Source: Panorpa germanica (Eukaryota; Arthropoda; Insecta; Mecoptera; Panorpidae). From it: a stretch of DNA of 64,000 nucleotides. The position numbers were made by a program, and so were the translations under genes. Each line of letters starts with the position of its first letter. Within the stretch, counting starts at the first letter, position 1. The stretch is taken from the NCBI GenBank assembly GCA_963678705.1, contig OY783220.1, forward strand, positions 1,943,001 through 2,007,000, written 5' to 3'. Positions 1 to 35,458 of this stretch are shown here, one piece after another. Under the pieces are notes generated by a model. That model did not search any database. It was not told the DNA's origin and saw only the letters and a program-made list of their open reading frames with translations.

Positions 1-933
1 CCTGTTGTTAAACGTGGAACGGTTGCGGATATAGTTTCAACATGCATGCAAAATAGCAGCTTATGGCCACTTTTCAAAATTAAGCATCTGACAATTAATA
101 TGAGAGTTGCGCAAGAAGAAATCGATTTCAAAACGTGGTTATTACAACTTGGAGATGGACTAATTAATGATAGTCCAGATAGTGTAGTAAACATGGTTAA
201 AATTCCAAATAAATTCATTTCTGACAAACCATTAGTCGATGAAATATACGGCGATATTAATTTAGTTAGTGTTGATGAATTAAAATCTCGCGTAATTTTA
301 TGTCCATTAAATGAAGACACATTACAGATTAATGAAAAAATTTTAAATTTATTGGATGGGGAACAATTTTGCTGTCTAAGTCATGACTCTGTTTCAACTG
401 ATTCTGATGCAGAACAAAATCATTTCCCAGTAGAATTTTTAAATAGTTTGACACCATCGGGTATGCCTCCACATAAATTAAATTTAAAAATAGGTGCAAT
501 TATTATGCTCTTAAGAAATATGAATGCTAATAGTGGACTTTGTAATGGAACCCGTTTAATTGTAAAACATATGTATACATCTGTAATAGATGCAGAAATA
601 ATTACTGGAAGTCACACTGGTGATCGCGCTCTTATTCCTAAAATAGTTTTAGCTCCTTCTGATATAAATCTTCCATTTATACTTAAAAGAGTTCAGTTTC
701 CTGTTCGATTAGCATTTGCTATGACAATAAATAAATCACAAGGTCAAACTTTTGAAAAAGTAGGTGTTTTATTACGGGAACCCGTTTTTACTCATGGCCA
801 ATTATATGTCGCGTTTTCAAGGGTTAAATCATCCAATAATTTAAAAATTGAAACATTAACTTCTGTTACTAAATCAAAGAAAGATATATTTACATCCAAT
901 GTTGTTTATAAAAATGTACTTCTATTAGAATAG
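1..933 (+). CDS. Helitron Rep/helicase, C-terminal part (5' end outside window)
   Basis: The frame is open from base 1 to the TAG at 931-933, about 310 codons. The first ATG at 46 is internal, because residues before it (PVVKRGTVADIV) already match the family. This is the C-terminal end of the PIF1-like SF1B helicase fused to the Rep nuclease in Helitrons. In the family it unwinds donor DNA during rolling-circle transposition. Visible motifs, numbered from base 1, are LCNGTRLIV near residue 180, FAMTINKSQGQTF near 239 (helicase motif V/VI region) and GQLYVAFSRV near 266. There is no internal stop or frameshift, so this copy may be young. The Rep domain and Walker motifs would lie to the left of the window. 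A cellular PIF1 helicase is unlikely given the Helitron-specific spacing and the tandem array downstream. Confidence 0.9.
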   Translation, partial: PVVKRGTVADIVSTCMQNSSLWPLFKIKHLTINMRVAQEEIDFKTWLLQLGDGLINDSPDSVVNMVKIPNKFISDKPLVDEIYGDINLVSVDELKSRVILCPLNEDTLQINEKILNLLDGEQFCCLSHDSVSTDSDAEQNHFPVEFLNSLTPSGMPPHKLNLKIGAIIMLLRNMNANSGLCNGTRLIVKHMYTSVIDAEIITGSHTGDRALIPKIVLAPSDINLPFILKRVQFPVRLAFAMTINKSQGQTFEKVGVLLREPVFTHGQLYVAFSRVKSSNNLKIETLTSVTKSKKDIFTSNVVYKNVLLLE

Positions 934-1026
934 ATACCTCCAATACCTTTTGCTATTTTATCTGCTATTCGAGTTTTATAAGTAATAATATTATAATTCA
1001 TCATGTTCAAGTCAAATAATAGTGTC

Positions 1027-2395
1027 CTTAAATTTTAGATTCTCTTTACGTATTTTTCTTTTAGCAGTCATTTGTTAAACAAATACTCTGATCGGGAGAG
1101 TGAGATTATCATTTAATTGCTTCTAGATAGATATAATTGAGATTTATTTTTTAAGTTCTCATTATTTTTTTATTATATAGTTCACATTAATTTTTACATA
1201 ATTAAACTATTAACCTTAAAACCTTTTATCGTCTTTACGGTTCGAAATTATTTACTCTTTGCGATTTCACCTGTTTTCCGTGTTTTATAAGTAATGATGT
1301 TTTATTTTATCATTTTTAACCCAAATAGTACTTTAAATTTTAGATTCTCTTTACGTATTTTTCTATTGGCTTTCATTTGTTAAACAAATACTCTGGTCGG
1401 GAGAGTGAGATTATCATTTGATTGCTTTTAGATTGGTATAATTGAGATTTATTATTTAAGTTCTTATTATTATTTTATTATTTACTCTTAAATTTTAGAT
1501 TCTCTTTACGTATTTTTCTATTGGCTTTCATTTGTTAAACAAATACTCTGGTCGGGAGAGTGAGATTATCATTTAATTGCTTTTAGATAGGTATAATTGA
1601 GATTTATTATTTAAGTTCTTATTATTATTTTATTATTTACTCTTAAATTTTAGATTCTCTTTACGTATTTTTCTATTGGCTTTTATTTGTTAAACAAATA
1701 CTCTGGTCGGGAGAGTGAGATTATCATTTAATTGCTTTTAGATAGGTATAATTGAGATTTATTATTTAAGTTCTTATTATTATTTTATTATTTACTCTTA
1801 AATTTTAGATTCTCTTTACGTATTTTTCTATTGGCTTTCATTTGTTAAACAAATACTCTGGTCGGGAGAGTGAGATTATCATTTGATTGCTTTTAGATAG
1901 GTATAATTGAGATTTATTATTTAAGTTTTTATTATTATTTTATTATTTACTCTTAAATTTTAGATTCTCTTTACGTATTTTTCTATTGGCTTTCATTTGT
2001 TAAACAAATACTCTGGTCGGGAGAGTGAGATTATCATTTGATTGCTTTTAGATAGGTATAATTGAGATTTATTATTTAAGTTCTCATTTTTATTTTATTA
2101 TTTACCCTTAGATGAAAGTGTTATATATATTATATTGTGTGTACGAAGCGATGTACTCTTTGCCATTTTACCTGCTTTTCGTGTTTTAAAAGTTATAGTG
2201 TTATATTTCATTGTTTTCAAGCCAAATAGTAGTGTTTTTAAATTTTAAATTCTCTTTCCGTATTTTTCTTTTAGCAGTAATTTGTTAAACAAATACTCTG
2301 ATCGGGAGAGTGAGATTATCATTTAATTGCTTTTAGATAGGTATAATTGAGATTTATTATTTAAGTACTTATTATTACTTTATTACTTACTTTTA
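1027..2395 (+). repeat. Tandem array with 155-bp core unit in Helitron tail
   Basis: Core copies start near 1027, 1332, 1487, 1642, 1797, 1952 and 2240. The four middle steps are almost exactly 155 bp and the copies nearly identical. Each core holds a TTTGTTAAACAAA palindrome and the motif TCGGGAGAGTGAG. The first and last copies are more diverged. A second block of about 130-150 bp (946-1026, 1183-1330, 2105-2239) precedes cores 1, 2 and 7, so the pattern is A-B-A-B-B-B-B-B-A-B. This suggests an older 300-bp unit whose core was later amplified. Confidence 0.9.
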
Positions 2396-2520
2396 GATGT
2401 AAGTGTTATATATATTATATATGTTATTGGCATTTTATTTGTTTTCAGATTAATACATATCCTTTTATGAATTCTTTCCTTTTTATAATCCTATGTTGGT
2501 CCTCTCCTCTCCCGACAACG

Positions 2521-3940
2521 AAGTTTCAAATTTATAAAATTCAGTCATATTCATATTGAAATAACTTCTACATAACTACATGCATGCTACATTATCATAT
2601 GAATAATATATTTTAAAAATTTGTTTCATATTCTTTACCTGCTCGCTGGTGTTGTCGCATGATTTATTTGATAACGTTTAGAAAAAATACTCTTATTTAC
2701 AAATCATTAATCATAATACATTTTTAAGTGTAGTCTAATGTGTAATAACTGTTACCAGATCAGTATTTTTATTACAACGTTTGCAGATAAATTAACTAAA
2801 AAGAATATTTCCTTTTTAAATTATAAATTATGCTTTCATATTATTAATTATTAATACGAATATTGCTATTACAAATAATTAACATTAAATATTAATCATT
2901 TGTCTGAAATACGGTAAAAAGTAACCTAAAATACCTTTACGACACAATAATATATAACAGCATGATGATACAATCATATCATTATGCTGAGATTCTTTAA
3001 AATAACATAACATTCTGAGGTATTATGCTTTTTAAATAGATTTTTAAACAAATGAATTAATGCTTTTGATGTTGAAAAACATTATTTTTGTGTTTAATTT
3101 TTGTGAAATAACTACTACAAATATTATTACTATTCTATATTATCCTTTTATTAAAAATAAATACAATATATTCTTCATGTTGTTTAAGACGATCATGCAA
3201 GTACGATGTAAATTAATGTTATTGTAATTTACAGAGCGAAAAAAGGGCCGTGGCAATAAGAAGTTCAGCAAATTGATCGTGTATATTTATAAAATGCAAC
3301 AAAGGCCCGGCTTACGGGAAATTCATTATCTATTATTCTGATAAACAATTCAATGAAGCAGATATTAGTGCTGTTCATCACATGTACAAACTGTAAGTGC
3401 ATAATTTATTTGTTTTGCATTCAGTATATTTGCTTTATTTATTTATGAAGAATGCTTCTTTTAGGAGGGGAATAATAAAGTGCTACTATTTAAATGCTAA
3501 ACCTGGAATAGTAATGAGATAATAACCGCCAACATCACAGAAGACTACTGTCCTACTATCACAGAAGATGTTATATCCACACCGATTAAGGCATGACAAT
3601 CTGAAACGACAGTGCGTTAATAGCTATACGTTTATGAAGAAACAACAAAAATGATAACAACATGAAAAATACAAAGAATACTATTTACTGGTCAATGAAG
3701 AAATAATTTTAATTATATATATTAAAGTGTACGAAAAATGAAGACGATATATATAAATTTATATTTAATATATTTAACAGAAATATTTAAATTTAATTAT
3801 GAAACATTTAAAAATTATTATAAAACTAGAATTTTAATTTTTTTTTTATATGATATAATAAGTAAATCCTGTAGAATATTTGTTCCAATAAGCAATTTTA
3901 AAGTAGTAGATCATATAAGATGAAATACAACATTTCCATT
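2521..3940. other. AT-rich stretch, no gene seen
   Basis: No coding region or recognisable family was found. The 61-codon frame at 3738-3923 is very AT-rich, resembles nothing and is probably chance. The right end may already belong to the Helitron that finishes at 4104. Confidence 0.5.
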
Positions 3941-3944
3941 TTAA

Positions 3945-4104
3945 AATATTTATTTATTTCATGTACGAGTATGATATCTAAAAAATAGCGACAGTGCTTT
4001 TCTAATTTTATTATGAAAAATTTGAAATGAAATTACGTATTACTTTATGAAATTCAAATAATATATATTAAACAGACGTCGCTTTGCGACGGGGTAAAAG
4101 CTAG
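3945..4104 (+). mobile_element. Helitron 3' terminus (non-autonomous copy)
   Basis: GTCGC (4078-4082), loop TTT and GCGAC (4086-4090) form the subterminal hairpin. It is followed by GGGGTAAAAG and CTAG at 4101-4104, then a T, as expected for Helitron insertion between A and T. The preceding 100 bp resemble the ends of the copies at 4770-4886 and 5000-5100. The 5' end was not located. Confidence 0.75.
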
Positions 4105-4129
4105 TATGTTTATATTCTTATATTCTTAT

Positions 4130-4886
4130 ATGTTTATATTCTTATATGTTTACGCGATTCGTATGGTAGCTCCTAAAACGGCTCCGTCAATGTTTCTGAA
4201 AATTTCCTATTTCGTAGAGAAACGGATTCTAAGACTTTTGGCGTCCCCGGATTTTTCCCTGAATTTCCTGAAAACTCGTAATTTTGGAAAAACTGGAAAA
4301 AAAGTGAGCCCTTTTTTGCTGTATTACTTTTAATTCGTAAAAGATAGAAAGTTGAAATTTTGCATGTGTATTAGGGTGTTTAATTCTGACATTTTTTAAA
4401 AACTAGAAATTCATAAATTGAAAAAGGGGGGGTTAAAGAAATTTGGGGGCCCGGTAGGGAACTTCAGAGAAAGTTCATATTCTGGATTCTAGAATAATTA
4501 AGTATATTATTAATAAAAAAAAATTCAAAATTTTAAAATTTTATTTGGGGGCACGGGGGCAGTATTTGCCGAGAGTAAAAATTGTGCTAGAAAGTTGAAA
4601 TTTTGTATATAGGCTAACCTTGGTAACTTATTTACGAATCGAAAAAAAAAATCCCAAATTTTGAAAAAAAGTTGCTCAAATAACGCATAAAATTAAAAAT
4701 ATTTTTTATTTTGATAAAAAAAAAATATTTTTTTAGTCAATTTATATGTGTCAATGTATTGTGCGCGAGTTTATTTATTATTTCAATTTAAAAATAGAAT
4801 TAAATATGAAATGTAATTACGAATTATTTTATTGGATTCAAATCATACACGACAAAAAGATAGCGCATTGCGACGGGGGTAAACTC
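4130..4886 (+). repeat. Left arm of large inverted repeat (Helitron-derived)
   Basis: This arm aligns over its whole length, with few differences, to the reverse complement of 4998-5741. It starts in repeats of TTCTTATATG and ends in a hairpin-like GCGCATTGCGACGGGGGTAAA followed by CTC instead of CTAG. Its 3' end is therefore a modified Helitron end. The frame at 4106-4333 and the minus frame at 5455-5805 are the same sequence read in the two arms and are not genes. Confidence 0.9.
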
Positions 4887-4932
4887 TATGGAAGTTAAAT
4901 TTGACATGAAATTAAAGCCACACACAAAAGAG

Positions 4933-4963
4933 AGACGTCGCTTGCGACGGGGGTAAAAGCTAG
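4933..4963 (+). mobile_element. Second Helitron 3' end, in the inverted-repeat spacer
   Basis: CGTCGC-TT-GCGACG is followed by GGGGTAAAAG and CTAG at 4960-4963, then T. It lies in the 111-bp spacer between the arms. Only about 75 bp separate it from the end of the left arm, so its own body must be very short or lost. Confidence 0.7.
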
Positions 4964-4997
4964 TATAAATATATACTTGGGACTTTATAATATACTT

Positions 4998-5741
4998 GAG
5001 TTTACCCCCTTCGCAATGCGACGTCTTTTTGGCGTGTATCATTTGAATCCAATAAAATAATTTGTAATTAAATTTCATATTTAACTGTTCTATTTTTAAA
5101 TTGAAATAATAAATAAACTCGCGCACATATACACACATATAAGTTGACTAAAAAAATATTATTTTTTTATCAAAATAAAAAATATTTTCAATTTATGCGT
5201 TATTTGACCAACTTTTTTTCAAAATTTGGGATTTTTTTTTTCGATTCGTAAATAAGTTACCAAGGTTAGCCTATATACAAAATTTCAACTTTCTAGCACA
5301 ATTTTTACTCTCGGAAAATACTGCCCCCAAATAAAATTTTGAAATTTTGAATTTTTTTTTATTAATAATATACTTAATTATTCTACAATCCAGAATATGA
5401 ACTTTCTCCAAAGTTCCCTACCGGGCCCCCGAATTTCTTCAACCCCCCCTTTTTCTATTTTTGAAATTCTAATTTTTGAGAAATGTCAGCATTAAATAGC
5501 TTAATACACATGCAAAATTTCAACTTTCTATCTTTTACGACTTGAAAGTAATACAGCAAAAAAGGGATCACTTTTTTTCCAGTTTTTCCAAAATTACGGG
5601 TTTCCAGGAAATTCAGGGGAAAATTCGGGGACGCCAAAAGTCTTAGAATTTTTTTCTCTACAAAATAGGAAATTTTTAAAAACTTCCATGGAGCCGTTTT
5701 CGAGCTACCATACGAATCGCGTAAACATATAAACATATAAG
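4998..5741 (-). repeat. Right arm of large inverted repeat (Helitron-derived)
   Basis: This is the reverse complement of 4130-4886, read from the Helitron-like end (GAGTTTACCCCC at 4998) out to CATATAAACATATAAG. Differences are scattered substitutions and small indels; the deepest stretches, near 5225-5345, are almost identical. Confidence 0.9.
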
Positions 5742-5814
5742 AAAACAAACATACACCTCGGACATTATAATATAGGATAAGAAAACAAACATACACCTCG
5801 GACATTATAATATA
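5736..5814. repeat. 41-bp direct repeat, two copies
   Basis: A unit starting GATAAGAAAACAAACATACA and ending in CTCGGACATTATAATATA occurs twice in tandem at the outer edge of the right arm. It may mark the original 5' terminus of that element. Confidence 0.85.
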
Positions 5815-5859
5815 AGATCTGACTTGAAAAATCTAAACAGTTTAGTTAGGGGCCAGATT

Positions 5860-5901
5860 TTTTTTTGCACCGGGGCCCTTGGTTACCTAGCTACGCCACT
5901 G
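5860..5901 (-). mobile_element. hAT-like terminal sequence, single end
   Basis: On the minus strand the end reads CAGTGGCGTAGCTAGG, the same style of terminus as the complete element at 48122-48433. No partner end was found, so this is a fragment. Confidence 0.5.
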
Positions 5902-5904
5902 ACT

Positions 5905-6255
5905 ATATGTAAACCAACATGTTTACAACATGTGTACCATAAAAAAAAATAGTTTATGCACAGTGTTCTCTCGCTCACAGTATCAAGTCACAATGTGCCA
6001 CTAGATATGTAAGGTATGTAAGGAAACGATCAAAAGTAGCTTACTTTCAACAAATTCTATAAAAAAAACAAATACTACTTGCTGTAATTTTCTTTGTAGA
6101 CAATATTTGTTATATTCCTAATCAATGATTTCAAAACAGTAGTAACAAAATTACCTTTTTATATCACAAAACACCCGTTTCAACATATATAGGTTTCGTA
6201 TGTTAAAAATGCAAATTTTAACACTAAAAATCTCAAAATTTAGTACATTTTTAAA
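5905..6255. other. AT-rich, nothing recognised
   Basis: No coding frame or repeat with a partner in the window was recognised. Confidence 0.5.
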
Positions 6256-6257
6256 TA

Positions 6258-6519
6258 CAGTGTTAAAGAATTGGTCGTTAAAATGCTTTAGACGCCTCTT
6301 TCTTAGATTAGAGCGACAGCGTGTAAAAAATCGGCACCGCCAATTTGTATGAAACTGCAGATTTTCCGCGCAACTTTTAAATAGCAGAAAACGTGTACAT
6401 TTATGTGATTGAATGTACTACTAAATTACGGATTCATTTCCGTGCAATTATTTTTTGCAGTGCAATCTTAGTTCCAGTAAGAGGGTCTAAAGCATTTTTT
6501 CGATCATTGTTTTACAGTG
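6258..6519. mobile_element. TIR element (MITE) with TA target duplication
   Basis: Left end CAGTGTTAAAGAATTGGTCG and right end (minus) CACTGTAAAACAATGATCG continue as about 58-bp imperfect inverted repeats, both containing ATGCTTTAGA. TA flanks both sides (6256-6257, 6520-6521). There is no coding capacity. A TA duplication suits Tc1/mariner-like mobilisation. A half copy lies at 26575-26682. Confidence 0.7.
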
Positions 6520-35015: not shown

Positions 35016-35458
35016 GGGTCGGCGCTCGAAGTGTTACTAATTTTACGCTGCTGTAGCAACCAAACGGCTAATGACAGCGCGCTCTTTTTTTGACAAGCGT
35101 CAGTGTATTATGTTGTTTACAAGCCTACAGAATATCGTTTACGTCGCAGTTAAAAAAAGTTATCGAAATGGAATTCAAACGCAACAGTGTTATTGTTTTG
35201 TATTTGGCTGGAAAATCGCAACCTGCCTTTATTAATGAGCTCCGACATTTACATGTGAAGAAAATGTTTGTGTATCGAACCATTACATATTACAGTAATA
35301 CTGGTAGCATCAAAAAACGCCATGGAAGTGGACATCCAAAAACAGCAACATCTCCAGAAATGGTTCAAAAGGTGAAGGATAAAATTTCAGTGTCTGCTCG
35401 TAGCATGGGCCGCATATTAAAAAATGAACTACGGTTAGTAGGTAGTAGGAGTATTTAG
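35016..35458 (+). pseudogene. Mariner-like transposase, 5' end and N-terminal domain
   Basis: After TA (35014-35015) a terminal-repeat-like GGGTCGGCGCTCGAAGTG opens the element. Translation most likely starts at the ATG at 35168. The peptide MEFKRNSVIVLYLAGKSQPA continues with LRHLHVKKMFVYRTITYY, GSIKKRHGSGHPKTATSPEM and VQKVKDKI, then ILKNELRL. This is the paired helix-turn-helix DNA-binding half of a Tc1/mariner-group transposase. Stretches before SARSMGRILKNEL are shorter than in the family, so some residues are deleted. The catalytic half is absent, and the frame ends at 35456-35458 in foreign sequence. The upstream ATG at 35090 lies in the untranslated leader. Confidence 0.8.

Follow-up and report, generated by a model that had tools for sequence, protein, structure and literature searches.

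An inverted repeat in Panorpa germanica most likely formed by two separately inserted copies of a high-copy Helitron family

Anatomy of the inverted repeat and its neighbours

The window, by which we mean the whole 64,000-nucleotide stretch analyzed here (C17:1943001-2007000 of a genome searched as 464 Mb in 249 contigs), contains two long arms facing each other, the left one at 4142-4886 on the forward strand and the right one at 4998-5732 on the reverse strand. Aligned to one another, the arms agree at 91.3% of 749 aligned positions, a similarity far above chance (printed E of 0.0), and their ungapped blocks of 379, 179, 87, 62 and 40 nt are 91-100% complementary. An initial annotation had described a 750-bp near-perfect inverted repeat; the repeat is indeed present near the coordinates given for it, yet "near-perfect" is too strong a term at 91.3% identity. 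The left arm terminates with an internal hairpin and the motif AAACTC (4881-4886), and the same motif closes the right arm on the reverse strand (5003-4998), in agreement with the annotated arm ends. The 111 bp reported to lie between the arms are likewise confirmed as a spacer at 4887-4997, composed of the 3' tail of the left element (4887-4963) and the 34 nt that remain of the right element's second module (4964-4997). A hairpin followed by CTAG is found inside the spacer, at 4934-4963.

The left arm is part of a single non-autonomous Helitron on the forward strand (4105-4963), which lacks its 5' TC end and retains a complete 3' CTAG. A genome search with this element returned 74 matches from the best 40 of 4334 candidates, and among the matches listed at least 45 copies outside the window span 4105-4963 at 91-93% identity, a full-span copy being one that starts within the first 30 bases of the query and reaches its last base (859). 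The match stops at CTAG in all 30 extracted loci, one of which is that of the window itself. Because full-span copies terminate there, the hairpin and CTAG at 4934-4963, previously read as a third, canonical Helitron end, are present as described and represent the canonical 3' end of the left element itself, while AAACTC is internal. A second query centred on the spacer (4850-5030; best 40 of 2416 candidates scored) matched 38 of 39 places outside the window from query base 1 or 5 to at least base 115, that is from 4854 to at least 4964, at 89-97% identity, locus L062 being the exception.

Directly adjoining the left element is a further Helitron 3' end, again a hairpin with CTAG (4075-4104, forward strand), which was absent from the initial annotation. 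It closes the 3' part of another high-copy Helitron (3000-4104) that was matched at all 40 scored places (best 40 of 1600 candidates), with 37 of the 39 matches outside the window reaching the last base and two of them printed as 100% identical. The 5' end of the Helitron ending at 4104 was not found. Upstream of this left Helitron end stands a tandem array with a 155-bp unit, present in 5.1 copies at 98% (1329-2110) and in weaker copies within 873-2537.

The right arm belongs to an element on the reverse strand (4964-5777) that has a 5' TCC end and a complete first module and ends abruptly after the initial 34 nt of its second one. It is 98.8% identical to positions 1-822 of a reference dimer and has dozens of relatives at 97-100% identity among the best 38 of 5446 candidates; judged by its sequence, it is a young copy. 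The two-module form, from A|TCC to CTAG|T, measures 1579-1624 nt in the five loci examined for length (L007, L009, L018, L020 and L024), with the first module closing with AAACTC and the second opening with AAGTATATTATAA. A search of the 9.1 kb leftward (5 kb left of the window plus window positions 1-6500) did not recover the remainder of the right element's second module. Directly upstream of the right element, at 5778-5817 on the reverse strand, a further family member has left a remnant of 40 nt from its 5' end. The right arm is hence bordered by two successive 5' ends, at 5777 and 5817 on the reverse strand, a feature also missing from the initial annotation. The double 5' end reads as two 40-nt copies with 97% matches, and the genome matches at C13:14518332, C13:10695891, C7:1740277 and C7:1737078 also extend through 5778-5817.

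Four open reading frames of the window were compared with Pfam, yielding one match below the cut-off: a paired-box match (E 0.00066) in a 127-aa frame at 35075-35458 on the forward strand, which we take to resemble a mariner-type DNA-binding domain.

Family membership and relationship of the two arms

Copies of the family start with TCC, TCT or TCA and finish with CTAG, consistent with the 5' TC and 3' CTRR ends of Helitrons; in the window, the left element is without the TC end and the right element without the CTAG end. The hairpin GTCGC-TT-GCGAC precedes GGGGGTAAAAGCTAG, as is characteristic of Helitron1 3' ends, and the flanks A|TC and CTAG|T (e.g. in L032, L047 and L060) point to insertion between A and T without target-site duplication. 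The genome is rich in Helitron Rep domains, which may mark candidate autonomous partners of the family: PF14214 scored above the cut-off at 150 places (best 150 of 893 candidates), and some of these matches lie in open frames of 1119-1489 aa, which suggests recent Helitron activity. The Helitron origin proposed for the arms is well founded on these grounds. Canonical non-autonomous Helitron1 elements share the 5' TC, the 3' CTAG, the 3' hairpin and the A|T insertion without duplication, but here full elements consist of two modules (internal AAACTC, then CTAG) and occur alongside shorter one-module forms. The lepidopteran Hel-2, in the portions of its description available to us (PMC4344730), is also similar in its 5' TCC, 3' CTAG, A/T flanks, 3' stem-loop and a microsatellite near the 5' end, a likeness of description rather than of alignment.

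For a phylogeny of the arms, 94 of 195 BLAST rows with near-whole arm coverage were kept, resulting in a tree of 61 distinct copies from loci picked by their similarity to the window. The left arm groups with L043 and L060 (support 95/98), and the right arm falls in a separate clade of 39 rows (support 100/99). An AU test on the 61 copies rejects the arms as sisters (p = 7.3e-6). The nearest of these copies to the right arm are L026, L030, L028 and L004, identical or nearly so over compared columns, with L026 identical over 735 columns (gaps ignored), and the best relative of the left arm reaches about 94% identity in BLAST and 95% once the alignment is trimmed. The terminal branch of the left arm is 0.039 and that of the right arm 0, in a tree whose bootstrap correlation of 0.984 was not fully settled; owing to this longer private branch, the left copy looks older than the right one. 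In addition, 8 nt found in the left arm and in most close relatives of the right arm are absent from the right arm itself (735 vs 743 nt of alignment length). Going by these sequence comparisons, the arms represent two distinct members of a single non-autonomous Helitron family with a high copy number.

The AAACTC terminus shared by both arms had been taken as an argument for an inverted duplication or a composite element. This argument finds no support, since the motif is internal and common, being present in 69 of 109 sampled modules, and since the arms are rejected as sisters. The fraction describes the sample rather than a genome-wide share, because the loci are similar to the window and L061-L075 were found with a query containing AAACTC; positions were moreover binned by 30 bases, so that a few copies were perhaps counted twice. 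AAACTC is followed by the second-module start in 47 modules and by a TATGGAA-type tail in 12. The other 40 of the 109 modules have different ends, 32 of them AAACGTT by our own count. The closest tree neighbours of the left arm, L043 and L060, carry AAACGTT instead of AAACTC, so it is possible that copies have exchanged some sequence near their 3' ends. More generally, an odd terminus common to facing transposon copies is no evidence of duplication if it is common in the family.

Origin of the tail-to-tail arrangement

The inverted repeat is most likely made of two separately inserted high-copy Helitron copies, rather than being an inverted duplication or a new kind of element. We hold with good confidence, tempered a little by the AAACGTT ends of L043 and L060 and by the likeness of up to 97% between a right-hand arm on C1 and that of the window, that two copies of one high-copy non-autonomous family inserted independently and came to stand tail to tail on opposite strands within a Helitron cluster. 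This reading draws directly on the observed element boundaries, the copy numbers, the separate branches of the arms and the other tail-to-tail cases. The initial annotation had itself named numerous single-arm copies with the same boundaries as the sign of two chance insertions, and many such copies exist elsewhere in the genome. The arrangement can be explained without assuming that the pair serves any function as a unit.

On this view, the Rep/helicase of autonomous Helitrons would have produced the copies, which would have entered between A and T, the putative favoured target being the AT-rich beginning of elements or modules already in place. At the junction (4963/4964), the CTAG of the left element is followed by a T within the AT-rich start of the reversed second module, as would be expected of a Helitron 3' end at an A^T target. 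That the left element simply inserted into the right one is disfavoured, as the inserter should be the younger of the two, yet the left branch is longer (0.039 vs 0). Nested insertion in this form was rejected also on the missing second-module part, which did not appear in the 9.1 kb leftward. Given the apparently greater age of the left copy and the absence of the remaining second module from those 9.1 kb, an extra step is needed; later deletion, inversion or array recombination may account for the order of events and for the loss of that part.

One version of the two-copy explanation specifies this step: the 5' region of an older Helitron received a young one, head to tail, and recombination among family copies subsequently inverted part of the pair. 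In the genome, the head-to-tail orientation greatly outnumbers the others, and the 40-nt 5' remnant at the right arm and the 5'-truncated left arm resemble the two sides of a nested insertion. On the other hand, what adjoins on the left is another Helitron's end and not the missing second-module part, and we rate this version as rather improbable.

Independent insertion of two copies also has parallels at other loci. A CTAG end with a reversed AAACTC end behind it, searched as an exact pattern, occurred at three places with a gap of 5-35 and at two with a gap of 36-66. At three of these five places, namely the window, C1:14901651 and C2:2871515, the CTAG end is joined to a reversed second-module start; the remaining two (on C6 and C7) have different short gaps. 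Over the main aligned piece, the left-hand arms of the three units are 84.6-91.3% alike and the right-hand arms 90.5-97.2%, the highest value being that of the C1 and window right-hand arms. The C1 and C2 units have the same junction position and the window junction is 8 nt away. We infer from these comparisons that the three units arose in independent events. Among distinct CTAG ends in the fetched loci, which were likewise picked by their similarity to the window (86 of 87 ends examined, one being too close to a locus edge), 41 have a same-orientation member within 25 nt downstream, 3 face a member in the opposite orientation (in the window, L062 and L010) and 42 have neither.

A composite Helitron moving as an arm-spacer-arm unit would explain why the junction is almost the same in two further tail-to-tail units, identical in position between C1 and C2, and why the C1 right-hand arm is so close to that of the window. 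This is very unlikely in view of the divergence among the three left-hand arms, the differing left neighbours and the 8-nt offset of the window junction. Nor was a second full-length arm-spacer-arm match found by genome search among the best 38 of 5446 candidates.

Comparably unlikely is a functional hairpin locus that would provide dsRNA for siRNA or piRNA production. In the predicted RNA fold of 4105-5780 (-1040.9 kcal/mol; a single sequence, unshuffled), 735 of 747 pairs join the two arms, and formation of dsRNA from the arms is accordingly possible in the model; any facing pair of copies would fold likewise. Least probable of all is an inverted duplication of one copy on site (foldback or palindromic) with later divergence, which could account for arms of the same family that both carry AAACTC and align over 749 positions, but which would survive only with later gene conversion of one arm, as the right arm is identical to L026 and 91% identical to the left arm, sister arms are rejected by the AU test, and the 8 nt shared by the left arm and most close right-arm relatives are missing from the right arm.

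The C1 locus itself lies in a palindromic array whose Helitron units occupy both strands (C1:14898600-14904600, comprising L078, L062 and L079). A 5.8-kb stretch of it is 88.4% identical to its own reverse complement over 5906 columns, which corresponds to two arms, each about 2.9 kb long. Similarity to the reference dimer is 94.3% and 94.8% for the two dimers of the array, and this higher similarity was taken as speaking against an inverted duplication as the source of the C1 array.

One-way arrays and scars at 5' ends

Helitrons are known to insert at A/T without duplication, and joined-end circles and tandem arrays have been reported for them in the sections available of one study (PMC5876387). 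Both rolling-circle products and self-insertion are offered as the origin of Helitron arrays in the literature, as far as it was accessible. Head-to-tail junctions (CTAG, 0-30 nt, then TTATAATGTCC) are found 483 times genome-wide, 252 in forward and 231 in reverse orientation. Head-to-head junctions within 30 nt were found at one place, counted once per strand, and a genome pattern search for strict CTAG-to-CTAG tail-to-tail junctions within 30 nt returned none; the junction patterns are exact and unequally permissive, which makes the orientation ratio a rough one. Inspected by eye, the 100 listed head-to-tail junctions comprise 70 of the form CTAG|TATATTATAATG, 24 CTAG|TC and 6 others. The head-to-tail junctions and arrays are thus similar to those of the reported circles and arrays, but about 70 of the 100 listed junctions differ, by eye, from the exact CTAG|TC circle junction in that account (PMC5876387).

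A second signature was seen at the 5' ends. TC precedes 105 of 401 exact 5' ends, giving TCA|TC, against the roughly 5% that we estimate from base composition. A same-strand junction lies 200-3000 bases downstream of 14 of 24 ends with such a scar and of 6 of 37 without it (Fisher p = 9e-4), and up to 1.2 kb downstream the counts are 8 of 24 and 0 of 37 (p = 2.5e-4). Of the 100 listed 5' ends, the comparison takes in the 61 on C1 and on C2 as far as 16.1 Mb, with the 24 scarred ends from the same stretch; junctions at less than 200 bases are ignored, and the arrays cannot be treated as independent units. The other 10 of the 24 scarred ends are without a same-strand junction within 3 kb. As a sequence pattern, the scars suggest repeated self-insertion at the 5' end, at TCA^TATATT.

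We tentatively propose, at somewhat less than even confidence, that self-insertion in one orientation at A^T inside resident 5' ends (TCA^TATATT) builds the arrays, leaving a TCA scar upstream and CTAG|TATATT downstream, and that rare wrong-strand events at the second-module start give rise to tail-to-tail repeats. If so, each Helitron array would record its own insertion history; in any case, the one-way orientation and the scars bear on how Helitron arrays form. Self-insertion, multiple 5' ends and insertion in opposite orientation have been described or proposed for fungal Helitrons, and insertion into the 5' end of another copy is one reading of a fungal three-copy tandem, according to the available parts of that report (PMC5148889). 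Its FoHeli elements of Fusarium oxysporum, as far as they are described there, resemble the present family in their double 5' ends and in the insertion of one copy into or close to another's 5' end, and opposite-orientation insertion is proposed as a source of composites. In contrast, FoHeli is Helitron2-like with other termini, whereas the family studied here has Helitron1-like termini and junctions in the hundreds (PMC5148889).

Two individual arrays stood out. At C1:4073371-4086531, six junctions are spaced alternately by 2570 and 2711 bases in a long regular array. Three head-to-tail first modules are present at C3:25512499-25514938, with a period of 812 bp and matches that overlap by 3 bp.
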